From assembly GCF_900635455.1 (NCBI RefSeq), contig NZ_LR134116.1:1302001-1366000 (forward strand): a DNA stretch of 64,000 nt, given 5' to 3'. The stretch's first letter is position 1. Each line of letters begins with the position of its first letter. The notes beneath the pieces were generated by a model. That model was not told where the DNA came from. It did no database searches and saw nothing but the letters and a program-made list of their open reading frames with translations. This document shows positions 11,322 to 50,877 of this stretch, in pieces. The stretch is from Yersinia intermedia. GTDB lineage: Bacteria; Pseudomonadota; Gammaproteobacteria; Enterobacterales; Enterobacteriaceae. Position numbers and translations under genes: made by a program.

Positions 11322-11795
11322 TTAACCAATACGGTCAAGGTCAGCGGCATAGTGGCGAATCGCTTTTTGGTAGAGGCTGATGTCCTGATAGTTTGAGGTT
11401 TCAGCCAGCAATATCAATAATGCAGCGACGGCCTCTTTGGTTTCACCGAGGTTATACAGCGTCATGGTACGGAATAAGGTTATCTCTTTCGCTTGCGGGA
11501 AATGAGCTAACGCGCGGTCAAATGTGTCCAGCGACTCTTGATATAGCCCCAGAGCGCGATAAGTGCTGCCCAGCCCCAGATAGGCCTCCTGCAACTCTTT
11601 ACCTACCAGATTGTGCTCAATCGCGGCACGGTAGAAAGGGATTGCCTGCAACTCCAACCCCTGCACATCATACAGTGAGGCAATCTTATATAGCAGGCTG
11701 GCGTTATCGGGTGAGCGACGCAGTAAGTCTAGCGCCAGTGCCACCGCATCATCATAACGGCCCAGCTCTTTTAATGAGTCGATGGAGTGTTTCAT
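11322..11795 (-). CDS. Tetratricopeptide repeat protein
   Basis: 157 residues from the ATG at 11795 (MKHSIDSLKELGRYDDAVAL). About three to four 34-residue TPR units are visible: LGRYDDAVALALDLLRRSP, SLYDVQGLELQAIPFYRAAI, LGSTYRALGLYQESLDTFDRA and LYNLGETKEAVAALLILL. No signal peptide or catalytic motif is present. It is likely a protein-interaction module; the partner is unknown. An upstream in-frame extension to 11834 is less likely because TPR homology starts at the second Met. Confidence 0.8.
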   Translation of the reverse strand: MKHSIDSLKELGRYDDAVALALDLLRRSPDNASLLYKIASLYDVQGLELQAIPFYRAAIEHNLVGKELQEAYLGLGSTYRALGLYQESLDTFDRALAHFPQAKEITLFRTMTLYNLGETKEAVAALLILLAETSNYQDISLYQKAIRHYAADLDRIG

Positions 11796-11936
11796 GGTTG
11801 TGCTCTGTCTTTTGCCAATAACGGGTTTTGTCAAAAACGGCGTTTACCCCTATATATCTGAGCACGCTACTCTCGAATGATAAAACAGGCAAGCGATGTA
11901 ATGCTTGCCCATAAAACTCAGCAACAGGGCAAAATT

Positions 11937-12008
11937 CAAGATCTCTGCTACAGATCCCATTTCAACAGATAGCAAGATCTCTGCTACAGATCCCATTTCA
12001 ACAGATAG
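11937..12008 (+). repeat. Perfect tandem duplication, 2 x 36 bp
   Basis: Two identical 36-bp units (11937-11972 and 11973-12008) start CAAGATCTCTGCTACAGATC and end TTTCAACAGATAG, followed by a further partial ATAG. There is no spacer, so it is not CRISPR. It lies about 70 bp upstream of ypfM. Confidence 0.95.
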
Positions 12009-12079
12009 ATAGCTTGCTTTCAATTTTGACTGTTCAAAAAACAGGCGTATAATGAACCGCGATAATTAGAGAGGATGTT

Positions 12080-12142
12080 ATGGTTGAATTTGAGTTAAGT
12101 ACGTGGAAAGAGTTTATCGATGCTATGCTGCGCAAGGCATAA
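12080..12142 (+). CDS. ypfM: Microprotein YpfM
   Basis: A 20-codon reading frame, MVEFELSTWKEFIDAMLRKA, that matches the E. coli microprotein YpfM (about 19 residues, containing WKDFIEVMLRK). The ATG is preceded by GAGAGG with about 6 nt spacing. Position between yffB and acrD is as in E. coli. Function is unknown. Too short for ordinary gene finders, but conservation across genera supports it. Confidence 0.85.
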   Translation: MVEFELSTWKEFIDAMLRKA

Positions 12143-12230
12143 GCGAATAAACCGGCAGTAAGAGTAACTATCTTTTTGTTGTTTTAACGATTGACTTATC
12201 AACACCCAGGGGCGAAAAATCGCTCGTCAG

Positions 12231-12262
12231 AAAGGCAGAGACCATGTTGGCTCTGCCTTTTT
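12231..12262 (+). terminator. Rho-independent terminator downstream of ypfM
   Basis: AAAGGCAGAG pairs with CTCTGCCTTT across a 10-nt loop, followed by more T residues. It closes the ypfM transcript; between ypfM and this hairpin about 90 bases could make a long 3' UTR. Confidence 0.85.
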
Positions 12263-12263
12263 T

Positions 12264-12381
12264 ATGCCCGTCATCTTTCAAACCGTAGGTGTGTTGGCTG
12301 CTCTCATTCACCCGAATCACTGACTTGATGTCAGCTCATCGGGATTCTCTTGCTTGCCGTCTTCCTACAGCTTGAAATCTA
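12264..12381 (+). repeat. ERIC element abutting acrD
   Basis: Left end GCCCGTCATCTTTCAAAC, centre CACCCGAATCACTGAC and TCATCGGGATTC, right end GCCGTCTTCCTACAGCTTGA then AATCTA. The right end overlaps the acrD stop codon (TAG, complement of 12379-12381). Confidence 0.85.
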
Positions 12382-15300
12382 CTCTTTCGCGCGCGGTGGC
12401 CTGCCTGGGAAGCGGCGACGCACCAGAACAAAGAACAACGGTACAAAGAAAATCGCCAGCACGGTAGCTGAAATCATCCCTCCCATCACGCCAGTACCGA
12501 CTGCGTGTTGGCTGCCAGAGCCTGCACCCTGGCTGATAGCCATGGGTAACACACCAAAGATAAATGCCAGTGAGGTCATCAAAATAGGCCGCAACCGCTG
12601 GCGGGAAGCCTCAAGAGTGGCTTCGACTAAATCTTTGCCTTTATTGTTTAATTCACTGGCAAATTCGACGATTAAAATGGCATTTTTGGCCGACAATCCA
12701 ATAATGGTTAGCAACCCGACCTGGAAATAAACGTCATTCTCCAACCCGCGCATCCAGGTGGCTGCCACCGCACCTATCACCCCGAGTGGCACCACCAACA
12801 TCACAGAGAAGGGTATTGACCAGCTCTCATACAATGCTGCCAAACACAAAAACACCACCAATAACGAGATAGCATAGAGCGCTGGGGCCTGTGAACCCGA
12901 TAGCCGCTCCTGATAAGACATGCCTGTCCACTCCAACCCAAAACCATTTGGTAGTTGTTTGACCAGCTTCTCCATGACATCCATTGCAGTACCGGTACTG
13001 ATACCCGGTGCCGCCTCACCGACAATTTCCAGTGCAGAATAACCGTTATAGCGCTCCAATCGTGGTGAGCCATATTCCCAGCGGGTGGTAGAGAACGCCG
13101 AGAAGGGCACCATGCTGCCGCTTTTATTACGAACATACCATTTGTTAACGTCTTCCGGCAGCATACGGGCGGTGGCCTCAGACTGTACATAAACTTTCTT
13201 CACCCGCCCGCGATCAACAAAGTCGTTAACATAAGTTGAACCCCAAGCCGTTTTCAGCGTGTTGTTAATATCATCCAGCGCTACGCCCAACGCTTGTGCT
13301 TTGCGCTGATCGATATCTATCTGCAACTGCGGACTATCGTCCAATCCATTATGTCGCACTCGGGTCAGTACGGGCTCTTGAGCGGCCATCTGTAATAACT
13401 GATCGCGAGCAGCCATCAATTTGTCATGGCCCAGACCGCCGTGATCTTGTAATTCCATATCAAAACCAGAGGAACCACCCAAGCCTGAAATGGCCGGTGG
13501 GCTACTGACCGACACTCTGGCTTCGGCAATTTTATTAAATACTTTGGTGGCGCGTTCAATAATGGCAAAAGAAGAATTATTACTCTCTTTACGCTGCTCC
13601 CAATCAGACAGCCGAATGAAGAGGCGCGCCACATTTTGGCCGTTACCGCCTGGGCCGGATCCCACCGTTGAGAATACCGATAACACATTATTTTTTTCTT
13701 CCGTCAGGAAATAGTTCTCCACTTTTTCAACCACTTTCAGTGTCTGTTGCTGGGTTGATCCCACCGGAAGTTGAACTTGTGCCATAAACACACCACGGTC
13801 TTCCAATGGTAAGAATGACGTTGGTAACTTGATAAACAACAGAGCCAGCCCGCCCAGCAGCAGAAAATAGAGCAACATATAGCGCAAACTATGATGTAAC
13901 ACCTGAGCCACGCCTTTCTCGTAACGGTGAGTATTACGATCGAACATGCGGTTAAACCAGCCGAAAAAGCCGCGCTTGGCGTGATGATGCCCCGGCTGAA
14001 TGGGTTTGAGCATGGTAGCGCAAAGTGCCGGGGTTAGAATCAAGGCTACCAGCACCGAAAGCACCATGGCGGAAACGATGGTAATGGAGAATTGGCGGTA
14101 GATGGCCCCGGTGGTGCCACCGAAAAATGCCATCGGGATAAACACGGCAGACAGTACCAGCGCTATACCCACCAATGCGCCCTGAATTTGCCCCATGGAT
14201 TTACGCGTCGCTTCGCGTGGGTCTAGCCCTTCCTCGCTCATCACTCGTTCGACGTTTTCCACCACCACGATGGCATCATCAACTAACAACCCGATAGCCA
14301 ATACTATGGCGAACATGGTTAGGGTATTAATACTGAATCCGAACGCCGACAGTACAGCGAACGTACCCAATAGCACTACAGGGACGGCGATTGTTGGGAT
14401 AAGAGTGGCGCGGAAATTCTGCAAAAATAGATACATCACCAGGAAAACCAATAAAATGGCTTCCAACAGTGTTTTTACCACATCTTTGATTGAGGCTTTA
14501 ACGAACGGGGTGGTTTCATAAGCAATCTTAGCTTCAAGCCCGTGCGGGAAGAACGGTGCCAGTTCTGCTATCCGTGCCTTAACCAACTCATCGGTTTGCA
14601 GTTCATTGGCCCCGGAGGCCAGCTTGATACTCATCCCAGAGGCGGCCTGCCCATTAAAGCGGCTCAGGTAATCATATCTTTCGGCACCCATCTCAATTTT
14701 AGCCACATCACCTAGCGTGACCAGCGATCCGTCCTGATTGACGCGCAGCGTGATCGCTCTAAATTGCTCCGGTGTTTGTAATTGAGATTGAGCATTAATC
14801 GTGGCATTCAAGGCTTGATTATCGACTGAAGGGGTACCGCCTAATTGGCCCACCGCTATCTGGCTATTTTGCGATTGGATAGCGCTGACAACATCTTGCG
14901 TAGTTAGTTGATAATTATTGAGTTTGTTGGGGTCCAACCAGATACGCATCGCATATTGTGAACCGAAAGCATCAATACTGCCGACCCCTTCGATACGGCT
15001 GAGTGGGTCTTGCAGATTACTGGCGACATAGTCGGCAATATCTTGTTTATCCATACTGCCATCGGTGGAGACAAAGGCCAGCATCATCAAGGTATTATCA
15101 CCGGATTTTGAAACTGAAACACCTTGCTGTTGTACGTCTTGTGGTAGTTTTTTGATGGCAGATTGCAACTGATTCTGTACTTGTTGCATGGCTTCGTTAG
15201 GATCAGTTCCGGCCTGGAACGTCAGGGTTATTGATGCACTGCCGGAGTTGCTGCTCTGCGACGACATATACAGCAGTTTATCAAGGCCGGTCATGCTTTG

Positions 15301-36959: not shown

Positions 36960-38132
36960 ATGATGAAACCCATGTTTATTGAAAAAATAAAGTCGGCTTG
37001 GCCTGGTGATATGTTGAAGCGCGTGCGCATGTCACACTTAACTCTGTCCAAGGTACAGCGCCATTTAGGTAAGATTATGATTCTGATACCGATGTTGCTG
37101 CTGATTCTCTATTTATTGATTTTTAGCCAGCCACGCTATCTCAGTGAATCTAAAGTTGCCATCAAACATTCCAACGATCTCAATGGCAGTAATCTGAACG
37201 TAGCTTTGCTGATGGGCGCTGGTAACCCAAGTTCTGCCGAAGATGCCTTATATCTGAAAGAATATATTAATTCTCCTGATATGTTGGCGGTCTTGGATAA
37301 ACAGCTCGATTTTCGTCAGGCTTTCGGTCACAGCGGTTGGGATTTTTTCTATCATTTGTCTGATAGCGCCACTCGTGAGCAATTCCTTAATTATTACCGT
37401 AACCGTATCTCTGTTTCTTACGATGATAAAACCGGTTTGCTCACCATTGGTACACAGGGGTTCTCACCTGAATTTGCCCAAAAATTCAATCAGGCTGTTT
37501 TGAAAGAATCCGAACGATTTATCAATGAGATCTCACACCGCATTGCCCGCGAGCAGTTGCTGTTTGCTGAAAACGAAATGCAGGACGCGCGCACGCGGTT
37601 AAATAGCAGCAAAACCGAGCTACTCACTTATCAGAACAGCAATAATATTCTTGACCCTGAAGCTCAGGCTTTGGCTGCGACCTCATTGATTAATACGTTG
37701 GTAAGCCAGCGCATCCAGATGGAAGCGGAATTGCGTAACCTACTGACTTTCTTGCGTGAAGATGCACCTCAGGTGGTCAGTGCACAAAACGCACTCAAGT
37801 CACTCGCCAGCCAGATTGATAATGAAAAAAGCAAAGTCACCGCACCCGATGGGCTCAAATTAAACCGTATGGCGGTGGATTTTGAAGAGATTAAAGCCAA
37901 GGTGCAGTTCGATACTGATATCTACAAATTGACCCTGACATCAATTGAGAAAACCCGCGTTGACGCGGCAAGAAAGCTGAAGATGTTATCGGTGATCAGC
38001 TCTCCTCAGTTACCGCAGGAATCAAAGTTCCCCAGCAGTTTGTATCTGCTTATCAGTTGGTTACTGGTTTGTTGCTTACTTTTTGGCACTGTCAAATTAT
38101 TGCTGACGGTGATTGACGATCATAAAGATTGA
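36960..38132 (+). CDS. kpsE: Capsule polysaccharide export inner-membrane protein KpsE
   Basis: 390 residues of the polysaccharide co-polymerase (PCP-3) type. N-terminal membrane segment at about 38-55 (GKIMILIPMLLLILYLLIF), a long periplasmic region with coiled coil (EQLLFAENEMQDARTRLNSS; LRNLLTFLREDAP), and a C-terminal membrane segment LYLLISWLLVCCLLFG. E. coli KpsE is 382 residues. It links the KpsMT transporter to KpsD. First gene of region 1 here; kpsF, which leads region 1 in E. coli, is not present upstream. Two ATGs in a row at 36960 and 36963 are possible starts. Confidence 0.93.
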   Translation: MMKPMFIEKIKSAWPGDMLKRVRMSHLTLSKVQRHLGKIMILIPMLLLILYLLIFSQPRYLSESKVAIKHSNDLNGSNLNVALLMGAGNPSSAEDALYLKEYINSPDMLAVLDKQLDFRQAFGHSGWDFFYHLSDSATREQFLNYYRNRISVSYDDKTGLLTIGTQGFSPEFAQKFNQAVLKESERFINEISHRIAREQLLFAENEMQDARTRLNSSKTELLTYQNSNNILDPEAQALAATSLINTLVSQRIQMEAELRNLLTFLREDAPQVVSAQNALKSLASQIDNEKSKVTAPDGLKLNRMAVDFEEIKAKVQFDTDIYKLTLTSIEKTRVDAARKLKMLSVISSPQLPQESKFPSSLYLLISWLLVCCLLFGTVKLLLTVIDDHKD

Positions 38133-38196
38133 CGCTGTTTTAACGCTATTTCTAGCTTGTCGGAATGATACCGCAGGCAGTAACTCAGAGCATGCT

Positions 38197-39873
38197 ATGA
38201 AATTATTGAAATCTGTTCTTCTGATTATTGCCATACAGGCAACATCCGCTCAGGCCGTTGATCTGAATGCCGATCCCAATATGACGGGGGCGGCACCGTT
38301 GCCGTCGATTATTTCTGGTCAAAGCCAGCGGTCTTATAACGACAGTCAGTTTGACGATACCCCCCCACCGGTGATCCCGGTGGTGATGAGCCGCATGTTT
38401 GGTGCGCAGCTCTTTACTTCGGTCTCTGCGGCGGATAGTGGTTCCAGTATCGGTTTTAATCCAAACTACGTGGTGAGTTTGGGGGATCAGATCCAGGTAC
38501 GGTTATGGGGAGCATTTAACTTTGAAGGTGCGCTGAGTGTGGACCCGAAAGGTAATATCTTCTTGCCAAACGTTGGCCCGCTGAAAGTGGTTGGCATCCC
38601 AAATAGCCAGATAAACAGCGTGGTGACGGCCAAAGTCAAACAGGTCTATCAGTCGAATGTGAATGTCTACGCCTCTTTATTGCAGGCTCAACCGGTCAAG
38701 GTGTTTGTCACCGGTTATGTTAATAACCCTGGTTTGTACGGCGGGGTGGCATCTGACTCGTTACTCTCCTATCTCAGTAAAGCCGGTGGCGTCGATACCC
38801 AGAGCGGCAGCTATGTGGATATCAGCATCAAACGTGGTAACCGCGTGCGCTCACAGGTTAACTTGTACGATTTTCTCCTCAACGGCAACTTGGGGCTATC
38901 ACAGTTTTCTGACGGCGATACTATCGTGGTCGGCCCACGCCAACACACTTTCAGTGTGGAAGGCGAAGTGTTCAACAGCTACGACTTTGAATTCCGCAAT
39001 AGCACTATTCCGGTGAGTGAAGCGCTGAGTTGGGCACGCCCTAAGCCGGGGGCCACCCATATGACCATTATTCGCCAGCAAGGTACGATTAAGCGCAGTG
39101 AATACTATCCGCTTAGCTCTGCACCGGGGCGCTCATTACAAGATGGCGATAAGCTGATTATCAGTACGGATCGCTACTCAGGAACCATTCAGGTTCGGAT
39201 CGAAGGTGCGCATTCTGGCGAGCATGCCATGGTACTGCCCTATGGTGCGACCATGCGTCAGGTTCTGACAAAAATCCGCCCAAATAGCATGTCGCAAATG
39301 GACTCGATCCAACTGTATCGCCGCTCGGTCGCGCTGCGTCAGAAAGAGATGCTTGACCTATCACTGCAAAAACTCGAAGAAGCCTCTTTATCTGCACAGT
39401 CTTCCACCTCAGAAGAGGCCCGCTTGCGGATGCAAGAAGCACAGCTTATCAGCCGCTTCGTTAACAAAGCCCGCAACGTGGTACCTAAAGGCGAAGTGGT
39501 GCTCAATGAAAGCAATCTTGATCAGGTGATTTTGGAAGACGGTGACGTGATTAAGATCCCTGAAAAGACCTCACTGGTCATGATCCATGGCGAAGTGATG
39601 TTCCCGAATGCGGTGAGCTGGCAGAAAGGGCTTAGCCCGGATGATTACATCACCAAGGTTGGCGGTTATACGCAAAAAGCCAGTAACACCAAAGTCATTC
39701 TGATTAAACAGAATGGTGAAGCGCTGAATGCTGAAGACGTTAAGACGCTGCAACCGGGTGACGAACTGATGGTATTACCGAAGTTTGAATCGAAAAACAT
39801 CGAAGTAACGCGGGGGATTTCGACCATTCTTTACCAGTTGGCAGTTGCCGCTAAAGTGGTGCTAACACTCTGA
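38197..39873 (+). CDS. kpsD: Capsule polysaccharide export protein KpsD
   Basis: 558 residues from ATG 38197, exactly the length of E. coli KpsD. Sec signal ([20 protein letters not shown]) and a mature start [16 protein letters not shown] are close to E. coli, as is the whole body ([46 protein letters not shown]). Periplasmic/outer-membrane exporter of the OPX family with SLBB domains. The frame is open back to 38113, overlapping kpsE, but that part has no homology. Its stop overlaps the kpsC start (TGATG). kpsU, normally after kpsD, is missing. Confidence 0.95.
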
Positions 39874-41909
39874 TGATAGGCATTTTTTCGGCAGGGATCT
39901 ATCGCATCGAGCATCTGGAAAACTTTCTGGCTGAGCCATGCTGCAAGCTGTCATCGTTGCGATCAATTCCGCCGGGGATAAGTGCGGTGGCGGTGTGGGG
40001 CCATCGTCCGAGCGGTGATAAAGCTGTCGCGTTAGCGCGTGCTGCCAGCTTGCCTGTTGTGCGTCTGGAAGACGGCTTCATCCGGTCGCTGGGATTGGGT
40101 GTGTCCGGTTGCCCGCCGTTGTCGATGGTGGTGGATACTCAGGGTATCTATTACGACGCCAGTGGTGCCAGTTCACTGGAATCGCTGATTCTTGACCAGG
40201 CCGGTAACCAACCACTTTATGCCGACGCCCGAGAGGCAATGCAGTTAATTGTTGATGCTGACTTGTCGAAATATAACCTGGCACCGGCATTCAGCGGCGC
40301 GCCAGCGCAAGGTGATGCGGTATTGGTCGTGGACCAGACTTTTGGTGACATGGCTGTTAAGTACGGCAATGCCAGTGCGGCGGACTTTGAGGCTATGTTA
40401 GATGCCGCGCTGAATGAAAACCCACAGGCAGAGGTTTGGCTGAAAATTCATCCCGATGTTTTACAGGGTAAGAAAGCAGGCTACTTCAAGGCAATACCAA
40501 AAAATCCACGCATCAAGTTGCTGGCAGAAAATGTCAGCCCGCAGTCGTTATTGCGCCAGGTCAGCCGTGTGTATGTGGTGACTTCGCAATATGGTTTTGA
40601 AGCGTTGCTGGCGGGCAAATCTGTCACGGTATTTGGTCAGCCTTGGTATTCCGGTTGGGGATTGACTGACGATCGCCACCCACAGGCTGGTGGGTTATCG
40701 GCCCGGCGTGGGCAGGCCAGTTTGCTGGATTTATTCAGCGCCGCCTATCTGCGATACAGCCGTTATATCGATCCCTGTAGTGGGCAGTCGGGGACATTAT
40801 TTGATGTGTTAGACGGCCTGTTGATGCAAAAAAATCATCAGCTACAACGCCAGGGGCAGTTATGGGCACCGGGATTAACACTCTGGAAACGCAGTATTTT
40901 TTTACTGTTTTTAAAGACCACACTGAACAACGTCTCTTTCAGAGAACGTAAAACATCGAACACGGCTTGTGTGGTATGGGGCAATAAAGGCGAACAGCGC
41001 TGGCAAGCAAAGGCTCAGGCGCAAAACGTGCCGGTATGGCGTATGGAAGATGGGTTTATACGCTCATCGGGGCTGGGTTCTGACTTGCATCCGCCGCTGT
41101 CGCTGGTACTGGATAAAAGCGGCATTTACTACGATGCCACCCGGCCGAGTGATCTTGAGTCGTTACTCAATAGCAGCCAGTTAACTGACCTACAGCGAGT
41201 GCGGGCCGCAAAACTTCGCCAGCGGTTGGTCAGCGCCAAAATCAGTAAATACAACATTGGCGCGCCATTCAGTCTGCCGCCGCAAGCCAGTGGCAAACGC
41301 ATTCTGCTGGTATCCGGCCAGGTGGAAGACGATGCATCCATTTTGAGCGGAACAATCAGTATTCGTACCAATAGTGAACTGCTGAAAACGGTGCGCCAGC
41401 GTAACCCGGACGCTTTCATTATCTATAAGCCGCACCCGGACGTATTGGTTGGCAACCGGCAAGGGCATATCCCTGCCGCTGATATTGCGCGTTGGGCTAA
41501 CACTCAGGCGCAGGATGCCGACATCATCCAATGCATTCAGGCTGCGGATGAGTTGCATACTTTGACGTCGCTTTCGGGCTTTGAAGCGCTGTTGCATGGG
41601 AAGCAGGTATTTTGCTACGGCATACCTTTTTATGCGGGTTGGGGGCTGACACAGGACGAACATCCAGCACCACGTCGGCAGCGCATATTGACGCTGGATG
41701 ACTTGGTCTATCAGGCGTTGATCGCTTACCCGACGTATGTTGACCCTCTTCGGCGTGAAGCAATAACCGCAGAACGGGCGTTAGACATATTGGCGACTCA
41801 GCCACGTGCCGAAATGCAATTTAGTAAAAGAATATCGGACAGGATTATGCGTAATTATAGAAAACTGCTCATGCTAACTAAAGTAATTATAAATCAGTCT
41901 ATTAAATAA
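39873..41909 (+). CDS. kpsC: Capsule polysaccharide beta-Kdo transferase KpsC
   Basis: 678 residues (E. coli KpsC 675). Two homologous halves are obvious: [29 protein letters not shown] in the first, and [29 protein letters not shown] in the second. KpsC builds the poly-beta-Kdo linker on phosphatidylglycerol that anchors group 2 capsules, adding Kdo with the two glycosyltransferase modules. CMP-Kdo would have to come from kdsB, as kpsU is absent. Translationally coupled to kpsD. Confidence 0.95.
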
Positions 41910-41925
41910 TAATGGTGGCGTGTTT

Positions 41926-43173
41926 ATGCTTACAGATTGCCGTGCACTGACAACACTTCTTGCTGGGAAGAAATACCTGCTGTTACAAGGCCCGATGGGA
42001 CCTTATTTCAGTGATACCGCTGAGTGGCTCGAATCTCAGGGGTGCGAAGCGATGAACGTGGTATTCAACGGTGGCGACAAGTTTTATTGCCGTAAGCGCG
42101 ACTATTTGGTGTTCAGGCAGACGCCGAAAGAGTTCCCCACCTGGTTGAAAGATACCTGGCAAGATTACCACTTCGACACTATCTTGTGTTTTGGCGATTG
42201 CCGCCCGCTGCATCAGGTTGCCAGGCTTTGGGCGCAGACCAAAGGGGTGCGTTTTCTGGCGTTTGAGGAAGGCTACCTCCGCCCGCATTTTATTACCCTC
42301 GAAGAGGGCGGGGTGAATGCGTTTTCCGCCTTGCCACGTAATCCTGATTTCTACCGTAAGTTGCCAGAAATTAAAGCACCGGTCGCCAAAAAATTGACAT
42401 CATGCTTTAGTCTGCGGGTGCGCCGTTGCATAGGTTATTATCTGGCGGGCTGGTTTTACCGCCACCAATTCCCACAATATCGTCACCATAAATCCTTTTC
42501 ACCCTGGTATGAAGCCCGTTGCTGGATACGTGCTGCCGCGCGTAAACAGTGGTACCGATTCTTGCAACGAAAAGTGCTGAGCCAACTACAGGGTGAGCTT
42601 GACCAGCGCTACCATCTGGTGGTTTTACAGGTCTACAATGATAGCCAGATCCGCAACCACAGCCCATACAACGACGTGCGTGATTACATCAACGACGTAA
42701 TGTATTCATTTTCAAAAAAAGCCTGTAGTGACCAGTGGTTAGTTATCAAACATCACCCTATGGACAGGGGGCATCGCCTGTACGGGCCATTAATCCGTAA
42801 ACTCGGTAAGCAATACAACATCAGCGAGCGAGTAAAATATGTACACGATTTGCCGATGCCGGAACTGCTGACTCACGCCAGGGCGGTGGTCACGATTAAC
42901 AGCACGGCTGGGTTATCAGCCCTTATTCATAACAAGCCGTTGATCGTTATGGGTAACGCGCTGTATGACATGAAAGGGTTAACGTTTCAGGGGCATCTTA
43001 ATCAATTTTGGCAGTCTGATTTCAAGCCAGATATGAAGTTATTCAAAAAATTCCGGCTATATATACTGAGAAATACCCAGATTAATGCAGTTTATTATGG
43101 TGATAACCAGCTTGAACTGATACCTACGGTAAAGACTGAATATAAAGACGAATATTACCGGATCCCGGTTTAG
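41926..43173 (+). CDS. kpsS: Capsule polysaccharide beta-Kdo transferase KpsS
   Basis: 415 residues from ATG 41926 (a GTG two codons upstream is also possible). Adds the first beta-Kdo to lyso-phosphatidylglycerol before KpsC extends the linker. Clear KpsS landmarks are KYLLLQGPMGPYFSDTAEWL, VVFNGGDKFYCRKRDY, FDTILCFGDCRPLH, FLAFEEGYLRPHF, HHPMDRGHRLYGPL and VTINSTAGLSALIHNKP. Last gene of region 1; the transcript runs toward the minus-strand region 2. Confidence 0.95.
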   Translation: MLTDCRALTTLLAGKKYLLLQGPMGPYFSDTAEWLESQGCEAMNVVFNGGDKFYCRKRDYLVFRQTPKEFPTWLKDTWQDYHFDTILCFGDCRPLHQVARLWAQTKGVRFLAFEEGYLRPHFITLEEGGVNAFSALPRNPDFYRKLPEIKAPVAKKLTSCFSLRVRRCIGYYLAGWFYRHQFPQYRHHKSFSPWYEARCWIRAAARKQWYRFLQRKVLSQLQGELDQRYHLVVLQVYNDSQIRNHSPYNDVRDYINDVMYSFSKKACSDQWLVIKHHPMDRGHRLYGPLIRKLGKQYNISERVKYVHDLPMPELLTHARAVVTINSTAGLSALIHNKPLIVMGNALYDMKGLTFQGHLNQFWQSDFKPDMKLFKKFRLYILRNTQINAVYYGDNQLELIPTVKTEYKDEYYRIPV

Positions 43174-43893
43174 TGAGTTTGAGGAATTAACCAGTTCACA
43201 ACGACATAAAGGTTTTTATGAGTAAATTATAGGGTGAAGTATAGTCTTAAAATATTAAGTCAATGATTATTGATCACAACAAGTGTGATGTAAAATTAAT
43301 GGGAGTAGGGGATTTTTAAAAATAACCATCTTTAAATATGCAACTAGTTAATGTGAGTTAGTGTTTAAAACTATAAATGGATAAATAATCATTCTAACAA
43401 GAAGAGCAATTTTGAATACTATAATTTCTAAGGTGCTTGTTATGTTGTCAGCATCAAAAAATTCTTATCAAATAAAAGTGTTGAAACTGGTGAAAATAAC
43501 CTGACACAATAAAATATTAATCAAGTATATAAGTTACTGAGAAGTTTGGAAAATGCAACATTAATAAAAACTAGTAAAATATAATGATAGAGAATTCCCT
43601 TAGCGTGATAGATGCTAGAATATCCAAGTCAAACATGGTGTAATGAGATATAGCTTCAAGGAAGCCAGATTATTAATAGTGGCATCTATGAGATATTAGC
43701 TAAATATGATGGTGGTAATATTTCCGCAAGACATATCAAGATAAATTTTCTAGGGATATTTACTGGTATGCAACATCAGAAAGTGGAATTGATATTAATA
43801 ATTGCAGGGCCGCTAGTAGGAGTTAGTTTGACTTATGGGAATATAATAGTGAAGTTAATATGGTGATATTTTATAAAGTGATTTCTTAACGCG
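43174..43893. other. Non-coding, probably decayed DNA between capsule arms
   Basis: AT-rich with no intact gene. From about 43640 to 43870 two adjacent frames give short coding-like pieces: MRYSFKEARLLIVASMRY in one frame, and SQIINSGIYEILAKYDGG, NISARHIKINFLGIF and QHQKVELILIIAGPLVG in the next. This suggests a frameshifted remnant. I cannot assign the parent family. Confidence 0.4.
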
Positions 43894-43927
43894 AAAAAAC
43901 AGGCGTTCTAAGTTAATTAAAAACGCC
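43894..43927 (-). terminator. Terminator of the minus-strand capsule operon
   Basis: Read on the minus strand: GGCGTT, 14-nt loop, AACGCC, then TGTTTTTT. It lies 34 bp after the stop of the alpha/beta-hydrolase gene. Confidence 0.8.
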
Positions 43928-43961
43928 AGGATTTTAAAATGTAGTGAATCCTAATGGCTGT

Positions 43962-44753
43962 TCATTTAAAAAAGTTAACTTTCTTGAGTTCAGACAGTTC
44001 ATAACTTAATATTGTTAATATTTCGTTCATTGAGTTTTTTACAACATTATTATGCCGCGTTACAAAATATTCATCATTATGAAAAACCTTCAATATACTA
44101 TCCCCTCTGCTAGTAATAGAGTTAATTAATGGAGGGATATGGTCTGTATAGGTATCGTCATTATGCGATGTGATAATATATATTCTCTTGGGTGAGTGCA
44201 TGGAGTTTTTAATTATGTCTTTTAGGTATTCAGAATATATTATTTTTTGACTTTCGGTTGCATCTTTAGGATATATATAAGAAAGATGTTTTTTGAATTT
44301 ATCGATCCATTTAACTAAGTCGAACTGAGGAACAGCACAAATAACTGCGCCTACATTAATCTCATGACCAAATAATAAAGACGCATAGCCACCTTTGGAT
44401 AACCCAAATAGAGTCACGTTTTCGGAAAGTATTTTATATTCTTTTATCTTGCTAGTTATAAATTCTACTACGGCCTCCTTTTTTTCAAATCCACCATTTG
44501 TACCAAGATAATAATCGCCTACTAATCCTTTATCATCTTTGACATAAATTTTACGACAGTTAAAATATCTTAGCCCAGCCAAAAGAGTATAAGGATATCT
44601 TTTAATTGGGTCTTCAGATTTCTCATCGCCTAAAGATTGGAATATTACTAGGAGCTTACTTTCCCCAACACTATTTTCAAATGGATATGGATCTTCAATA
44701 TAAGTCAATTCAACACTATTACTGCATATAAATAACTTTTCTGAAAAACTCAT
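43962..44753 (-). CDS. Alpha/beta-hydrolase-fold capsule modification protein (possible O-acetyltransferase)
   Basis: 263 residues with no signal peptide. Nucleophile elbow Gly-Leu-Ser119-Lys-Gly-Gly in VTLFGLSKGGYASLLFG; a late His at about 234 (VTRHNN) and acidic residues in SHNDDTYTDH around 199-204 could complete a Ser-Asp-His triad. The capsule O-acetyltransferase CsaC of Neisseria meningitidis serogroup A has this fold and similar size, and works beside a Stealth-type polymerase as this gene does. O-acetylation is therefore a reasonable guess; a depolymerase or esterase is possible too. Last gene of the kpsMT-region 2 operon, 79 bp after the Stealth gene. Codon use is AT-rich. Confidence 0.6.
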   Translation of the reverse strand: MSFSEKLFICSNSVELTYIEDPYPFENSVGESKLLVIFQSLGDEKSEDPIKRYPYTLLAGLRYFNCRKIYVKDDKGLVGDYYLGTNGGFEKKEAVVEFITSKIKEYKILSENVTLFGLSKGGYASLLFGHEINVGAVICAVPQFDLVKWIDKFKKHLSYIYPKDATESQKIIYSEYLKDIIKNSMHSPKRIYIITSHNDDTYTDHIPPLINSITSRGDSILKVFHNDEYFVTRHNNVVKNSMNEILTILSYELSELKKVNFFK

Positions 44754-44832
44754 TTTAAACCCTTATTGACTTAGTTCAATATTTTAATTATTTCATCATC
44801 TATTAGTAGTCAGATGAAAGTAAACTATAAGA

Positions 44833-45933
44833 TCAATGGCTATAGTATTTATCAAGAAAGGCTATAAGCTCGAAATGATAGTTGTTATTGTTTTTGAAAT
44901 CATTTGAGTTGAAATCATTAGCACAGAATGAATGCGGAGCGTTAGAGGTGTTTTTTACGGATAACAGATTTTTATAAAGTGACTTTGCATTGGGTGACCT
45001 TATATTAAAATAATAGCTTATATCTAAATGTGGAGTAGAAAGGCCATTGAGATATTGGACATAAGGAACTAAAAAAGTTGCCATATTTAAGTCGATCCTA
45101 CTCCTAAACTTATTAGATGAGAATTTTTTAATATGGACTTCAAAAAGTTCAAATGTTTTGACATACATGCTCTTTTTCAATGGCACATAAGTATGAGTTA
45201 AAGGTTTATCAAATGAAATATTTAGCTTATTTAATAATAAACTGTTGCAATTATTCGAAGCTGTCAATGTTGCTGTCGATACACCTATTTTGTTCATGGT
45301 TTCTAAACTTTTACTGCTAATAAATAAACTACATAGTCCATTCGAACGAAAAAAATGAGATGGCATTATAGGCCTAGATACAAAAAAATCATCATTAAAA
45401 TAAATGAAATTTTCACTTAAATTTGGAATTTTATAAAGATAACTTTCTATTACATGTGAATTAAATGTTGGTAGATATTCATCAGGAATTATTTGCTGAT
45501 GGTCAATTATTATTACTTTGTCTTTTAATAAATTTGGTATTTCAGGTGTTTGTTTATCAGTGACAATGAATATATTTCTAACCCATGGCATAAAAACAGC
45601 CACACTTAATAAAGAATAATATATCTCATTATGGCTCTTAAACCTTGCTTCGTCAGTTGAAAAAAACTCTATATCTGAGTGGCATAGATTAACATGGGCA
45701 TTTTTATTACCTTGCCATATTTTATCCTCAGAGTTTACCCAAGTGTAAACGATGTCAATTTCAAAGATTGGATTGAAATCTGATAATATAACCTCTTCAT
45801 TATCTAACAAGATTTCTTCACTAAGGTATTTTATGTTATTCTGGTTGGTTACTATTGGGTATTTTTTTATTAAAATATCACGAAAGAAACAACCTGGATT
45901 TAAAAAAAATTTTTTTATTTTTCTCAGATTCAT
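44833..45933 (-). CDS. Stealth family capsule sugar-phosphate transferase
   Basis: 366 residues. Conserved regions of Stealth proteins are visible in order: CR1 EIDIVYTWVNSED at about 58-70; CR2 ARFKSHNEIYYSLLSVAVF, PWVRNIFIVTD.QTP at 96-130; CR3 ENFIYFNDDFFVSRP at 174-188. Stealth enzymes move hexose-1-phosphate from UDP-sugar to a sugar hydroxyl and make phosphodiester-linked polymers, as with meningococcal CsaB. The N-terminal basic segment (MNLRKIKKFFLNPGCFFRDI) is typical of group 2 capsule synthases. AGGAA with about 8 nt spacing supports the start. Probably a capsule polymerase, or one of two alternating activities. Confidence 0.85.
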   Translation of the reverse strand: MNLRKIKKFFLNPGCFFRDILIKKYPIVTNQNNIKYLSEEILLDNEEVILSDFNPIFEIDIVYTWVNSEDKIWQGNKNAHVNLCHSDIEFFSTDEARFKSHNEIYYSLLSVAVFMPWVRNIFIVTDKQTPEIPNLLKDKVIIIDHQQIIPDEYLPTFNSHVIESYLYKIPNLSENFIYFNDDFFVSRPIMPSHFFRSNGLCSLFISSKSLETMNKIGVSTATLTASNNCNSLLLNKLNISFDKPLTHTYVPLKKSMYVKTFELFEVHIKKFSSNKFRSRIDLNMATFLVPYVQYLNGLSTPHLDISYYFNIRSPNAKSLYKNLLSVKNTSNAPHSFCANDFNSNDFKNNNNYHFELIAFLDKYYSH

Positions 45934-45948
45934 GTGAATTATTCCTAC

Positions 45949-46845
45949 TTAGATAGCTGAGAGTACTGCTTCTCTATTACTAGAGTGTGGGAATAAACTT
46001 TCTAGAAATTCGAAATAAAGACTTTCATTAGATGTGCTTTCATCAAAGGTTATTGCTAGAGGGCAACGATTTGAACCATGCACTGATTGTATCCATACGA
46101 ATTTCTCAATAAATCCATAGTCAAGACGAGCATATTGAATTGGTGACTCTAATATTGAGTTTTGCAACAAAATAGTTCCTGCTATAGGAAGGAATTTGAA
46201 AATATATTCATTGCTTGATAGTTTGTTTGTATTTTTCTTATCTAAATAAATCAGGCTAATTGTATTGCAAATACTGATGTTTTCCATTGGGGTAAAATTA
46301 TAAGACACACCTTCCATTATATTATTTATATCTGAATCAAAATTAATTATTTTATTTTTATTCTTTTTGATATAATTTATTACTTTTCCATTATCACCAA
46401 TGAAATCGGAATGGTTTATTTTTTTAAGGAAGAAGAAGTTTATATTAATAAATACAAAAACTTCATTTCTATGAGAGTTAGGTAATATTCTTTTTTTGAA
46501 AAAATCATCATAATTTTCATACGTAAGAATTTCTTTGTGGGCGATTTTTATATCCTTAGATATATAACTAACACTAGAGAAGTTACCATATTTTTCTATG
46601 CTCCTATATTGTAATTTTAGAATGTTATTTTTAATTTTGTATTCTTCTAATATGTTATCAATAATTACCAAATTGACTTTTATTTTTTTTATGTCAACTT
46701 TATATCTTTCAACATTCATTTGTACTATTTCTTTATGTTTAGGTTGTGCTTTTTTTATATTTATGCTTTTTTTATTTAGGCGTTTTTCAATGGCATCTTT
46801 TAAATACAAATTTGGTGTTTTTATTAGCTTTGATAGCTTGGACAT
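45949..46845 (-). CDS. Capsule cluster protein of unknown function, possible glycosyltransferase
   Basis: 298 residues from ATG 46845, which overlaps the upstream stop (TAATG) and has AGGAG 8 nt before it; a GTG at 46854 is a weaker start. The N-terminus SKLSKLIKTPNLYLKDAIEKR has the basic-amphipathic form seen at the start of many group 2 capsule synthases. NEVFVFININFFFLKKINHS recalls the CR3 block of the neighbouring Stealth protein but lacks its Asp pair. WIQSVHGSNRC near residue 260 resembles a motif of some rhamnosyl-type transferases. The very high Lys, Asn and Ile content fits foreign, AT-rich origin. I do not recognise the family. Confidence 0.55.
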   Translation of the reverse strand: MSKLSKLIKTPNLYLKDAIEKRLNKKSINIKKAQPKHKEIVQMNVERYKVDIKKIKVNLVIIDNILEEYKIKNNILKLQYRSIEKYGNFSSVSYISKDIKIAHKEILTYENYDDFFKKRILPNSHRNEVFVFININFFFLKKINHSDFIGDNGKVINYIKKNKNKIINFDSDINNIMEGVSYNFTPMENISICNTISLIYLDKKNTNKLSSNEYIFKFLPIAGTILLQNSILESPIQYARLDYGFIEKFVWIQSVHGSNRCPLAITFDESTSNESLYFEFLESLFPHSSNREAVLSAI

Positions 46846-49247
46846 TAGTTGCACTCCTGCAAAAATCTAGTCATTACCTTGGAAATTTCATAGTTATTTA
46901 AATACGTATTTCTAGCGTTTATTCCTAGTTTTTCTAATAAAACTTCATCAGTGATTAGTTTTTCTAAACACTCTGAAAAATGCTCTATTGAAAAACATTC
47001 TGCGACTAATGAGTTGTATCCATTGACTAAGAACTCTTTTGGCCCATAACCAATATCAAAACTTACTACAGGTTTTGCCATGCTAAAACTTTCAATATAC
47101 ACCATGCCAAAACCTTCCTTGAGTGTTGTCAATGCGCAGAATGAACTATTATAGATCTCTTCATAAACTAATGATGTTGCAGTATGAATTGATATTTGTG
47201 ATGCCATATCGTTTTCATTTATTAGTGCAATAAGACTATCTTTTTCTTCACCATCACCATAAATATCCACATGCCATAGAGGGTGTTTTTTTGCAATAAG
47301 AGAGAATGACTTTATAAGTAAATCAAATTGTTTATCTTTAACAAGTCGCCCAAAAGAAACAATTCTATTGGGTTTGTGGTTAATTAATGCTCTCTGTAGG
47401 AGAGGGAGGCGATCTGGTATTCCATTCGGAATGTTGGTTACGTTGTTTATTCCTTTATCTCTATATTCTATATTTTGGAATTTTGTCAAGCCAATCACTT
47501 TATTAGCTTTATTATAGTGTTTAAGTATATCATTTTGAATTTCAAGACTATGGGAGCTAAATTCTTTGTGCTCTTGTAATATCAGAGTGTTATTATTATT
47601 CGCATATTTTATAATATTAACGCATAGCCCCGGGAAAGAACCGATAATCATTGTGTTATTAATTGTTTTTAATATTTTGTATAGCTTTATATCCGTAAGT
47701 AGAGAAAGTCCTTGATATAAGTCTTCTGTCTTTCTAAATAACTTAGATGGAAATTGTGCTAATGAATTCTCCCATTTTGATCTGTATTTTCCTTTACTTC
47801 TTACATCATTCAGATATTCAAGTCTTACACTAGGATCAAGGTGTGACTTAGGAGTATAATCTGTTCTGCGTAGCGATATAATTGTTACTTGATAGCCAAT
47901 TGAAACTAAATAGTTTGCTTGGTTGATTATAGTTTGTACCGTACCACCTATGCCATAAGCATTATAGCAAAAGTAAGTTATTTTTTTTTGTCTATCTTTC
48001 AACTGATTATCTAAAATAGTATTTGTTTTATTAAAATTTTCATAGTCATGTCTAACAATTTTAAAGTTTTTTGTTGCTTCGCTTTTTAAAGAAGACCTGA
48101 TTTTTTTTCTATTAAGTATTTTTTCTAACCCTGAAATACTGTTAACTGTAATTCCCAAAAAGTCACACGGCGAATTTAAATAATGTCCTCTCTCAAATTT
48201 ATATTCGTCATAATCAAATTGTAAAAATACAACTGGAGTTTTTAATAAATTAAATTCAAAAGCTATGGATGAATAGTCAGTTATACAAAGTGCTGTTTCA
48301 TTCAAAACAGTATCGAAATTATCTTGTCCAACAAATGCAACATTTCCGTTAAAAATGGTATCAATATTATTTTTCAAATGTAATAATTTTTCATGAAGAT
48401 AAAATACTATCTTTAAATTTTCATTTTTAGCGTAATTAATAATTCCCTTGCTTTCGAATATTTCTTTAATAAGTTTGATAAATTTATTATCTGCCATTCC
48501 ATTTATCCATTCATCTCGCCAGGTAAAGAAAAATAGAAGGTTATTCTTTCTAACTTTGCTACTACTTAAATTAGCATGTCTTGATAGTCCACTATTTATT
48601 ACTCTGCAGTCCAAAAACCCAATATTAGTTATTAATCTTTTTAGTGTTTGCAAATCAGAAAAATCAACATCTCCATTTGAATTATAATAATTTGATAGCA
48701 AAGTTATATAGAAAGTCTCTAAGTCTTTTTTGGATGCATTGCTTTTTAAATGTGGGAAATTATATTTTTTTATTATTTTATAAGTATCTACCAAATCTTT
48801 TTTTTGTTGTAAAATATTACATACTATTTCTTTCTCGCTACTTAATGATGTATGGAAGAATCTTATCCTTCCATTATAGTGCCCTCTGTGGAAATGTACT
48901 CTTTTATAAGTTATAATACCGTGTTGAAGATATACAATCGATGCCCAACCCTTTGATAGTGGCTTGTTTTTGAATGATGGAAATACATCCATATATCCAT
49001 CGTTTAGTAGCAGATAATCAGCTTTATAAAACTTCGATATGTGTTCTCTACTATCTTTTAGGATGATATTTTTTCCGTGGGATACTAGTTTCACTAAGTC
49101 TATATTGTCTTTGGTATATATGTAAAAAGTGTTCTTATATCCTTGATGCATTCTATGTTGAAAATAAGCAAAACCATTATCTCTGGCTTGCTTTCCGCCT
49201 TTCTCGCTTATGAGAATTGTTAGATCGCCCAGTGTATTTATTTTCAT
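46845..49247 (-). CDS. Bifunctional capsule synthase: TagF-like phosphotransferase domain fused to GT4 glycosyltransferase
   Basis: 800 residues. The first half (about 1-410) looks like a CDP-glycerol:polyol phosphotransferase (TagB/TagF type): IVYLQHGIITYKR at 104-116 with the motif His, and ALCITDYSSIAFEFNLL, TPVVFLQFDYDEY at 319-349. The second half (about 421-800) is a GT4 glycosyltransferase: GIGGTVQTIINQANYL at 432-447, VSFGRLVKDKQFDLLIKSF at 630-648, and the E-x7-E donor motif EGFGMVYIE at 711-719. TagF-like capsule polymerases making polyol-phosphate polymers are known in meningococcal serogroups H and Z and in Actinobacillus. No cytidylyltransferase gene for CDP-glycerol is in the cluster. 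No good ribosome-binding site precedes the ATG. Confidence 0.8.
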   Translation of the reverse strand: MKINTLGDLTILISEKGGKQARDNGFAYFQHRMHQGYKNTFYIYTKDNIDLVKLVSHGKNIILKDSREHISKFYKADYLLLNDGYMDVFPSFKNKPLSKGWASIVYLQHGIITYKRVHFHRGHYNGRIRFFHTSLSSEKEIVCNILQQKKDLVDTYKIIKKYNFPHLKSNASKKDLETFYITLLSNYYNSNGDVDFSDLQTLKRLITNIGFLDCRVINSGLSRHANLSSSKVRKNNLLFFFTWRDEWINGMADNKFIKLIKEIFESKGIINYAKNENLKIVFYLHEKLLHLKNNIDTIFNGNVAFVGQDNFDTVLNETALCITDYSSIAFEFNLLKTPVVFLQFDYDEYKFERGHYLNSPCDFLGITVNSISGLEKILNRKKIRSSLKSEATKNFKIVRHDYENFNKTNTILDNQLKDRQKKITYFCYNAYGIGGTVQTIINQANYLVSIGYQVTIISLRRTDYTPKSHLDPSVRLEYLNDVRSKGKYRSKWENSLAQFPSKLFRKTEDLYQGLSLLTDIKLYKILKTINNTMIIGSFPGLCVNIIKYANNNNTLILQEHKEFSSHSLEIQNDILKHYNKANKVIGLTKFQNIEYRDKGINNVTNIPNGIPDRLPLLQRALINHKPNRIVSFGRLVKDKQFDLLIKSFSLIAKKHPLWHVDIYGDGEEKDSLIALINENDMASQISIHTATSLVYEEIYNSSFCALTTLKEGFGMVYIESFSMAKPVVSFDIGYGPKEFLVNGYNSLVAECFSIEHFSECLEKLITDEVLLEKLGINARNTYLNNYEISKVMTRFLQECN

Positions 49248-49367: not shown

Positions 49368-50033
49368 TTATAGATTTTCATCCTTTTTGTACATATCGAT
49401 AGCTTCCTCGACTGATTCTATAAATTTAACTTTGTTATCACGTCCTATAAATAATGCTACATCACAAAATTCCTTAAGTGAACCGAGGCTATGCGATACC
49501 ATCAAAAAACTAGCCTCTTCATGACGGGATTTGAATAGCTCCGCACATTTTTGCTTAAAGCGTGCATCACCTACGGCAGTGACCTCGTCCACCAGATAGT
49601 AATCAAACTTAAATGCCATGCTCAGGCCAAAACCCAGGCGGGATTTCATGCCGGAAGAGTAGGTTTTGATTGGCATATCAAAGTATTTGCCAAGCTCGGC
49701 GAATTCCTCAACAAAGGCTACTTTCTCTCGTAATTCACGGTCTGTTGCATACAGGCGGGCGACAAACTTAACGTTTTCACGCCCGGTTAAACTCCCTTGG
49801 AATCCACCCGCCAGCCCTACTGGCCAGGAGATCGTTTTATCGGTAATAACTTTGCCGCTATCAGGCCGATCGATACCACCGATAACCCGTAATAGCGTGG
49901 ATTTACCGGACCCATTGCGTCCAATCAGGGCCACACTTTTATTAGTAGGGAACTCAACATTTAGATTTTTAAAAACGTAATGGCGGCCAGCCGGGGTACG
50001 GTAAGATTTGGTTAGATTTTCAATTCTGATCAT
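49368..50033 (-). CDS. kpsT: Capsule ABC exporter ATPase KpsT
   Basis: 221 residues. ATP-binding subunit of the capsule exporter. Walker A GRNGSGKSTLLRVI, signature YSSGMKSRLGFGLSMAF, Walker B YYLVDEVTAVGD and switch His in MVSHSLGSL are present, with the family N-terminus MIRIENLTKSYRTPAGRHYV. It overlaps kpsM by 4 nt (ATGA). After it comes a 120-bp AT-rich gap with a weak palindrome (49329-49345) before the region 2 genes. Confidence 0.95.
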   Translation of the reverse strand: MIRIENLTKSYRTPAGRHYVFKNLNVEFPTNKSVALIGRNGSGKSTLLRVIGGIDRPDSGKVITDKTISWPVGLAGGFQGSLTGRENVKFVARLYATDRELREKVAFVEEFAELGKYFDMPIKTYSSGMKSRLGFGLSMAFKFDYYLVDEVTAVGDARFKQKCAELFKSRHEEASFLMVSHSLGSLKEFCDVALFIGRDNKVKFIESVEEAIDMYKKDENL

Positions 50034-50806
50034 GAGGTTAGCATCGCCTCTTCACCGTTACGGTACAGCACTAACCCGACAAACAGACTGACAAGTGCAC
50101 ATAATGTCAGATAACTCAAGCTTACTCCGTCACTGCTATAGCCTGGAACGATGGCTGCACGGCTTAACTCGACCACATGTACTATGGGATTCCACAGCAG
50201 ATACGGCCAGTACTCTTTGGGAATCGTATGCAGTGAAAACATAATGCAGGAAATAAAGTAGAGCGGTTTTAACAGAATGGGTAGAAACTTCTCGGTTTCG
50301 GGGAAGGTCTTTCCTATAACCATAAAAATTAGGCCGATGCCACAGGAAAAAATGATTAGCATTAACCAAACCAGAACCAGTGAAATAAGGTTAACGACTT
50401 CAAACTCTTCGCCAAGCAAGCCGACGATCGCCATCAGTAAAACGTAAACTACCGCATAAATCAGTGCTTCTAAAATAGTGCGGGCAATGATGGTGTCTAT
50501 CGGCCTTACCGGGCGATAGTTAAATAAGCCTTGGTTGGCTTCTATGGCACCAATTGAACGGTTAGTGATGTTACTGAACATAAAAAAGGGGACAATCCCG
50601 TTAATCAGAAAAACCGGGAAGGAGATGTCTGGCATGGTGCGCTGCATAATGTAGCCGAAAATGCCTAGCAAAATGAGCATGTGGGCCATAGGTTCTAGCG
50701 CCGCCCAAAGATAACCCAGCCGATACTTGCCAAATCTGGTTTTAATTTCCCTCAGAAACAAAGCATTAACGGCAGCTTTTTGTACTTCGAAACCACTACG
50801 AGCCAT
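50030..50806 (-). CDS. kpsM: Capsule ABC exporter permease KpsM
   Basis: 258 residues of the ABC-2 transporter family with about six membrane segments (LEPMAHMLILLGIFGYIMQ; FPVFLINGIVPFFMFSNI; ALIYAVVYVLLMAIVGLLG; LISLVLVWLMLIIFSCGIGLIF; LPILLKPLYFISCIMFSL; LSYLTLCALVSLFVGLVL). It exports the lipid-linked polymer across the inner membrane. The first gene of the leftward operon, 34 bp downstream of the JUMPstart element. Confidence 0.95.
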   Translation of the reverse strand: MARSGFEVQKAAVNALFLREIKTRFGKYRLGYLWAALEPMAHMLILLGIFGYIMQRTMPDISFPVFLINGIVPFFMFSNITNRSIGAIEANQGLFNYRPVRPIDTIIARTILEALIYAVVYVLLMAIVGLLGEEFEVVNLISLVLVWLMLIIFSCGIGLIFMVIGKTFPETEKFLPILLKPLYFISCIMFSLHTIPKEYWPYLLWNPIVHVVELSRAAIVPGYSSDGVSLSYLTLCALVSLFVGLVLYRNGEEAMLTS

Positions 50807-50839: not shown

Positions 50840-50877
50840 CACGCTACCGCCTCTGGTTTACAGCGCCCAGTATGCTG
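50840..50877 (-). promoter_or_regulatory. JUMPstart with ops element upstream of kpsM
   Basis: The minus strand from 50877 to 50840 follows the 39-bp JUMPstart consensus at most positions and ends with the ops core GGCGGTAGCGTG (50851-50840). RfaH is recruited at ops to transcribing RNA polymerase and prevents premature termination in long capsule and LPS operons. This predicts RfaH control of kpsM, kpsT and region 2. Confidence 0.92.

Follow-up and report, generated by a model that had tools for sequence, protein, structure and literature searches.

LcbA, encoded in the capsule locus of Neisseria meningitidis serogroup L, is a Stealth protein. This locus, cslABC (lcbABC), comprises a phosphotransferase gene, a TagF-like polymerase gene and an acetyltransferase gene, with no precursor genes among the three (PMC3647402); the polymerase CslB was placed in the TagF-like set (PMC5974469). 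Also among the nearest known proteins are the two Actinobacillus pleuropneumoniae TagF-like/GT-B polymerases Cps3D and Cps7D, the Stealth enzyme CpsY of Mycobacterium tuberculosis (structure 8j2n), the O-acetyltransferase CsaC (SacC) of N. meningitidis serogroup A, and XcbB/CpsF (9hvz). How variable capsule polymers are joined to the conserved glycolipid is regarded as an open question for most systems (PMC11666461). The locus considered here lies in the window, i.e. the whole 64,000-nucleotide stretch of Yersinia intermedia contig NZ_LR134116.1 that was analysed. It contains four open reading frames (ORFs), all open on the minus strand at the coordinates given by the initial annotation, which encode an 800-amino-acid (aa) TagF-like polymerase fused to a family 4 glycosyltransferase (GT4), a 301-aa product (orf301), a 366-aa Stealth protein and an acetyltransferase-like protein (gene 4). 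Like serogroup L, it combines a phosphotransferase gene of the same 1,101 bp with a TagF-like polymerase and an acetyltransferase, without precursor genes; unlike serogroup L, where no counterpart is found among cslABC, it carries orf301.

The explanation favored here, held with somewhat better than even confidence, is that of a horizontally acquired kps region-2 cassette making an O-acetylated, alpha-linked poly(disaccharide-phosphate), with Stealth priming and orf301 as a partner. Its observed basis consists of families, predicted folds, motifs, conserved gene order and gene swaps. The TagF-like half would transfer hexose-1-phosphate from a uridine diphosphate (UDP)-sugar, as expected of its QHG class, and the GT4 half would add a second hexose with retention, yielding the alpha-linked poly(disaccharide-phosphate). 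The Stealth protein, of LcbA/CslA type, would start the chain on the glycolipid of 3-deoxy-D-manno-oct-2-ulosonic acid (Kdo) made by KpsS and KpsC, while orf301, a predicted Stealth fold without aligned catalytic residues, would dock or activate the polymerase. Gene 4 would O-acetylate the polymer, and KpsMT and KpsED would export it. With both TagF-like and Stealth families present, a phosphodiester polymer is well supported, and the phosphate-containing backbone of the initial annotation was retained; the backbone predicted here nevertheless differs from the teichoic-acid-like one first proposed.

Pfam assigned Glyphos_transf (PF04464, 73.6 bits, cut-off 22.1) to the N-terminal half of the 800-aa protein and Glycos_transf_1 (94.7 bits, cut-off 26.4) to its C-terminal half. 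The GT4 domain claimed earlier does exist, as one half of the polymerase and not as the product of its own gene; the 301-aa gene had been left without a family. H109, H285, DYSS 324-327, R634, K639 and E711x7E719 were invariant in all 27 aligned TagF-GT4 sequences (the window and 26 of 39 matches, omitting the identical P0008, two partial and ten distant ones), these positions being matched to published catalytic residues (PMC5974469 and PMC11666461) by motif and spacing and not by superposition. The protein displays what defines a TagF-like capsule polymerase, namely PF04464 fused to a GT-B domain, the two TagF histidines, and the R/K and EX7E residues. Its 2,403-bp ORF falls below the 2,500-bp search criterion of PMC5974469, and the Pfam scan gave no tetratricopeptide repeat (TPR) domain; the former is a search trait and the latter a majority trait of TagF-like polymerases, neither being defining. 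The AlphaFold2 model (predicted local distance difference test, pLDDT, 90.8; predicted template-modelling score, pTM, 0.88) had Cps3D (8qoy, E 1.8e-27) as closest solved fold, and TarM, a teichoic-acid alpha-glycosyltransferase, matched its GT4 half. Like Cps3D and Cps7D, the polymerase displays a TagF-like followed by a GT-B half and the catalytic residues of both; unlike them, it carries QHG instead of WHG, has no detected TPR and counts 800 aa versus 1,149 for the Cps3D chain, and neither TagD nor LicD is found among the four cassette genes. CslB, compared by description and not by sequence, differs in that a GT-A half precedes its GT-B-like (TagF-like) half. A QHG protein followed by a separate adjoining GT4 gene occurs in records from Exiguobacterium, Salinibacillus and Bacillus (the last with two; L005, L006, L018 and L021) as well as in a Lachnospiraceae metagenome-assembled genome (L007). 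That the same two parts occur there side by side suggests that the two halves work together.

One figure legend of PMC11666461 describes TagF-like polymerases with WHG as glycerol-phosphate and those with QHG as hexose-phosphate transferases, and the GT-B type was linked to alpha linkages (PMC5974469). The TagF-like domain of the window displays QHG (QHGII), the glutamine being shared by 24 of the 27 aligned sequences. Because of this motif class and the GT-B type, an alpha-linked poly(disaccharide-phosphate) would be the expected product. Motif and gene content were tabulated for the window and 25 loci, i.e. five genus loci with kpsC and twenty with a PF04464 frame >700 aa among the matches listed; not included are genome G289 and, for some genomes, a second place. 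TagD was called by phmmer (E <=1e-6 to one Bacillus TagD, ORFs of 90-229 aa). Among these matches, 16 loci including the window carried a fused QHG polymerase, with TagD near one (L164) and Stealth near ten, and four carried a fused WHG[TI]P polymerase, with TagD in all four and Stealth in none. The loci being related by descent, p values are indicative: TagD versus motif class gave a Fisher p of 0.001, and the Stealth-QHG association (10/16 versus 0/4) was not significant (p 0.087). L144 is without a TagF-like gene, and L150, L158, L159, L160 and L162 were uncounted (no fused QHG or WHG[TI]P polymerase by pattern), L150 having TagD and L160 WHGLG frames but no TagD; a WHGLG frame is also present in L156, which entered the table as QHG. 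The distinction between hexose-phosphate (QHG) and glycerol-phosphate (WHG) polymerases gains some genomic support from these counts.

In the initial annotation, the TagF-like protein was a polyol phosphotransferase and the capsule teichoic-acid-like, which would require the TagF-like half to transfer polyol phosphate from a cytidine diphosphate (CDP)-polyol. This appears improbable to us. PF04464 is indeed named for CDP-glycerol, the substrate used by the nearest solved structure, Cps3D (PMC5974469), but the window displays QHG instead of WHGTP, as do all four TagF-like polymerases in other kps loci of the genus, and TagD was not found nearby in 15 of the 16 QHG loci (window included). The window's own genome, which contains one PF04464 gene and one Stealth gene, displayed no TagD above cut-off either (the strongest TIGR01518 match, in a 477-aa frame, reached 54.5 bits against a cut-off of 165.4; no search covered CDP-ribitol enzymes). 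The QHG motif and the lack of a TagD above cut-off were the grounds for setting aside the teichoic-acid-like capsule. CDP-glycerol genes are missing from the cassette, as had been noted; rather than pointing to an outside supply of precursors, as was proposed then, their lack is better taken as a sign that none are needed.

The polymerase type was also found in different company. L164 (genome G233) encodes a QHG TagF-GT4 protein 31% identical to that of the window over 827 columns, next to TagD, a KpsT-like ATPase and two more PF04464 proteins; neither Stealth nor orf301 gave a match there. L146 has neighbours of the same kind, but its TagF-GT4 protein is WHGTP. This gene content fits a polymerase module independent of the start module. 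One polymerase type accompanied by Stealth and orf301 here and by TagD and two PF04464 proteins in L164 represents a natural experiment on how the polymers are joined to the glycolipid. Both loci (L164, 4611-11441; L146, 4389-11560) come from genomes of the window's taxonomic order and display wall-teichoic-acid-like sets (two stand-alone PF04464-type proteins, TagD and the KpsT-like ATPase) beside the TagF-GT4 fusion.

The 366-aa protein matched Stealth_CR2 with 122.2 bits (cut-off 39.4), and the Stealth assignment, like the TagF-like one, stood at Pfam cut-offs. Conserved regions CR1 (25.1 bits, cut-off 27.2) and CR3 (13.9 bits, cut-off 24.2) both scored under threshold and CR4 was not matched; CAND, taken as the CR4 tetrapeptide, was invariant in all 36 aligned Stealth sequences (picked from Stealth matches, loci and window). 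Alignment to CpsY spanned residues 57-347 and placed E163, N180, D182 and R277, likewise invariant in 36/36, on CpsY E305, N322, D324 and R419. These CpsY residues are important by mutation, E305A, N322A and D324A causing a 200- to 500-fold loss (PMC10668966). CR1-CR4 and the catalytic E/N/D/R of the Stealth family were recognized in this way, and the catalytic positions are kept as in CpsY. One Stealth match (P0066) bears the name lcbA. Its most likely role would be priming on the Kdo glycolipid. A role as main polymerase, making a poly-sugar-1-phosphate as MenX does and leaving a linker to the TagF-GT4 protein, has little probability: the protein has the 366-aa size of LcbA/CslA, a Stealth protein of 360-373 aa adjoins the TagF-like polymerase in 10 of the 16 QHG loci (window included), and the polymerase described for serogroup L is the TagF-like CslB (PMC5974469). 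Such a role would agree with the polymerizing Stealth enzymes of some capsules (PMC10299916) and with genome G015, in whose region 2 a 503-aa Stealth protein is the sole Stealth/TagF-type enzyme found.

The overlooked 301-aa gene is the most interesting part of the cassette. No Pfam or NCBIfam family exceeded its cut-off in this ORF. Relatives fit a likely start at the ATG at 46845, giving 298 aa and sharing a single base with the polymerase stop codon (TAATG); an overlap of one or four bases was found in 5/5 loci (window, Citrobacter L002, Kluyvera L003, L004 and L166). The predicted model, a weak one, has the Stealth fold and thereby resembles CpsY. CR2 was detected in four of 11 orf301 members (best E 0.0075) and CR4 in two (best E 0.0032), in the expected order, with none over cut-off, and some other families matched members as weakly. 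The full orf301 profile matched the Stealth profile with Prob 94.8 and E 5e-8 (unrelated profile A1, Prob 0.2). This match was rejected as sequence proof of a Stealth protein because the N-terminal motif accounts for it (residues 1-40 by themselves, Prob 97.4), and the Stealth claim therefore rests on the predicted fold and the weak, ordered CR2 and CR4 matches. The profile gave no match against PDB sequences. Unlike CpsY, orf301 lies under every Stealth cut-off and is without those catalytic residues for which an alignment was obtained: 11/11 members including the window have Asn where the Mg-binding Asp aligns, the N-D of the CR4 C-x-N-D is missing by eye, and a counterpart of R419 could not be located.

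We propose that orf301 is translationally coupled to the polymerase and serves it as a non-catalytic docking or activating partner. It could also be an active enzyme, e.g. a transition transferase whose active site has been rebuilt; we lean against this, while granting it a substantial chance. A C-terminal stretch, W251-VHGS-C261-P262, is nearly invariant in the 11 aligned members, beyond the needs of a pure scaffold, but the Asn substitution and the missing N-D argue against activity, as does the 200- to 500-fold cost of E305A, N322A and D324A in CpsY (PMC10668966).

For the proposed docking partner, a profile built from the N-terminal 27 residues of the Stealth alignment was run over 440 entries (locus ORFs and the A1 and A3 sets, some twice). 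At E <0.5 it retrieved Stealth proteins and 11/11 orf301 members, together with six long QHG polymerases (L140, L141, L143, L152, L161 and L163) and the 503-aa Stealth protein of L144; with the same profile the motif was found in none of the 27 TagF-GT4 proteins. The polymerases scanned for TPR were those of L140, L146, L164 and the window, and only the 1,271-aa polymerase of L140 displayed it. In App3 and App7, the TPR domain is essential for elongating a poly(glycerol-phosphate) linker (PMC11666461). As the window polymerase is without N-terminal motif and TPR, orf301 may bring the missing docking part, an idea supported by the overlap of its start with the polymerase stop in 5/5 loci. A bolder version, which we regard as rather unlikely, is that orf301 founds a new class of Stealth-derived pseudoenzymes, providing in trans the N-terminal motif for docking that the short polymerase lacks, along with a TPR-like role, and so coupling the polymerase to the Kdo glycolipid and the export complex. 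Polymerase, Stealth protein and orf301 form a small set for assaying the starting steps and a possible scaffold. A weak match to the motif (E 0.015) lies near the C-terminus of the 1251-aa protein of L158 (6281-10036; residues 1204-1220), as though the docking element could be relocated.

Several points weigh against a poly(disaccharide-phosphate) started by Stealth and assisted by orf301. The QHG rule stands on a single figure legend of PMC11666461; L164 pairs QHG with TagD (a WHGTP neighbour being present); many Gram-positive loci contain both QHG and TagD, mostly alongside WHGTP domains; and the tested GT-B-type members, Cps3D and Cps7D, use CDP-glycerol (PMC5974469). CslA, the proposed transition transferase, was inactive under the published assay conditions, its authors not excluding the role (PMC11666461). 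Concerning orf301, the model is weak (pLDDT 56); removal of the first 55 residues left a profile match of Prob 2.5 and score 23.6, which 3/100 column shuffles reached (best 26.3); and nine more QHG polymerases (L142, L149, L151, L153, L154, L155, L156 and two in L157) are without the motif, no orf301 being seen there. Finally, we infer the donor sugars, the order of action, the roles of Stealth and orf301 and the acquisition by transfer, and no biochemistry was found for the polymerase.

The gene 4 product matched NF033892 (XcbB/CpsF) with E 2.7e-19 and 69.6 bits, under the curated cut-off of 125. S119, Q143, D199 and H234 were invariant in the three aligned gene-4 sequences. Alignment to SacC (CsaC) placed S119 on S114 and Q143 on Q138, an unusual Gln without which CsaC loses 96.8% of its activity (PMC7501274). 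CsaC D198 aligned to D200 (Asp or Glu), one residue off the invariant D199, and the Asp is less firmly assigned; the alignment stopped before H228 and displayed no aligned His at H201, the gene-4 His being placed by position only. The GxSxG Ser and the Q138 position are aligned, and an Asp and a C-terminal His are conserved among the gene-4 sequences; the relation to CsaC and XcbB/CpsF (9hvz) is distant (E 0.003 and 4e-6). In Kluyvera and Pantoea the same slot holds a hexapeptide protein (best NCBIfam matches WbbJ, WcaF and galactoside O-acetyltransferases, under cut-off). Two unrelated acetyltransferase-like proteins occupying one slot constitute good evidence for O-acetylation, and gene 4 is a probable O-acetyltransferase of the polymer, in line with the putative one suggested initially. 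In L163, where Stealth and a 1,276-aa QHG polymerase are also encoded, the XcbB-like protein (11521-13161) measures 546 aa and has a long extension at its C-terminus.

Table 1. Features of the capsule locus (positions in the window; ABC, ATP-binding cassette)
Feature	Position	Strand	Basis
TagF-like/GT4 fusion polymerase, 800 aa, 2,403 bp	46845..49247	-	PF04464 and GT4 Pfam matches
orf301	ORF 45949..46854, likely gene 45949..46845	-	Stealth-fold prediction, no catalytic residues at alignable positions
Stealth phosphotransferase, 366 aa, LcbA/CslA-like, proposed priming (transition) enzyme	44833..45933	-	Pfam; alignment to CpsY 8j2n
Probable alpha/beta-hydrolase-type capsule O-acetyltransferase (gene 4), 263 aa	43962..44753	-	NCBIfam; PDB 9hvz, SacC 6yuo
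kpsT, ABC transporter ATPase	49368..50033	-	Pfam/NCBIfam
kpsM, ABC transporter permease	50030..50806	-	NF050053, 191.4 bits (cut-off 300)
JUMPstart element, 5' of kpsM	50840..50877	-	Rfam RF01707, 33.3 bits (gathering 35), E 3.4e-4
kpsE	36960..38132	+	TIGR01010, 434 bits (cut-off 437.5)
kpsD, TTG as listed start, true start may lie further in	38113..39873	+	Pfam/NCBIfam
kpsC, Kdo transferase	39873..41909	+	PF05159
kpsS, Kdo transferase	41920..43173	+	PF05159; NF050054, 380.3 bits (cut-off 600)
AT-rich gap, 788 bp, between convergent kpsS and acetyltransferase genes	43174..43961	.	no ORF >32 aa

By their sequence context, the four genes are region 2 of a group-2-type (kps) capsule locus. Coordinates, kps flanks and the JUMPstart element bear out the placement made by the initial annotation: kpsMT, kpsE, kpsD, kpsC and kpsS flank the region as in group 2 loci (Table 1), several kps NCBIfam scores falling under E. 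coli-type cut-offs. The cassette runs in the direction of kpsMT, and kpsE, kpsD, kpsC and kpsS converge from the other side. For kpsF and kpsU, no spare ORF of at least 100 aa was found between kpsE and kpsM, no family search being made for either. The full JUMPstart-like pattern had no match, though Rfam detected the element. GC content at third codon positions was 0.22-0.25 in the four cassette genes versus 0.42-0.56 in the six kps genes; the cassette was probably acquired by horizontal transfer. The transfer of kps loci in general is treated in PMC7305143. Decaying or silent DNA, to which the low GC and the 788-bp gene-free gap might point, is very improbable given four open ORFs, preserved catalytic columns, a JUMPstart element and a gene order that is the same in 5/5 loci, window included. 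The gap held no convincing gene remnant (best E 0.009); its counterpart in L002 measures 248 bp. L166 (3456-10712) contains the same four-gene cassette with kpsMT downstream instead of upstream, kpsEDCS not lying in its 19.5 kb.

The full-length TagF-GT4 type was restricted to the window's own genome among 25 genus genomes, and at E 1e-60 or better two of the family's 295 genomes had it, one of them the window's own. A distant DNA search gave no match for the polymerase gene in E. coli, and no place in plasmid records covered 80% of it. Across the order, five of 394 genomes matched the orf301 profile; apart from the window's own, the four others did so only in its first 42 to 83 positions. Literature searches for an inactive capsule Stealth protein and for Yersinia with kpsC/kpsS or Stealth, which reached few subscription papers, gave no title describing this cassette among the matches listed; the Y. 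enterocolitica homologues of Cps1B/Cps7D in PMC5974469 weaken the earlier remark that a Yersinia capsule of this kind had not been described.

Region 2 is exchangeable within the kps locus of the genus. kpsC was present in six of 25 genus genomes, own included, the other five copies being 82-95% identical to that of the window. In these five loci the kps genes are close to the window's, with the same macAB-like neighbours in G008, G014, G013 and G015 and a differing flank in G005. Region 2 comprises Stealth and a 1,271-aa TagF-like polymerase in G008 and G005; Stealth, a 292-aa protein and a 766-aa TagF-like polymerase in G014; a 330-aa GT2-type protein, a 1,266-aa TagF-like polymerase and a 296-aa protein in G013; and a 330-aa protein with the 503-aa Stealth protein in G015 (L144). 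This 503-aa protein (L144, 8918-10429) is perhaps a MenX-like polymerase.

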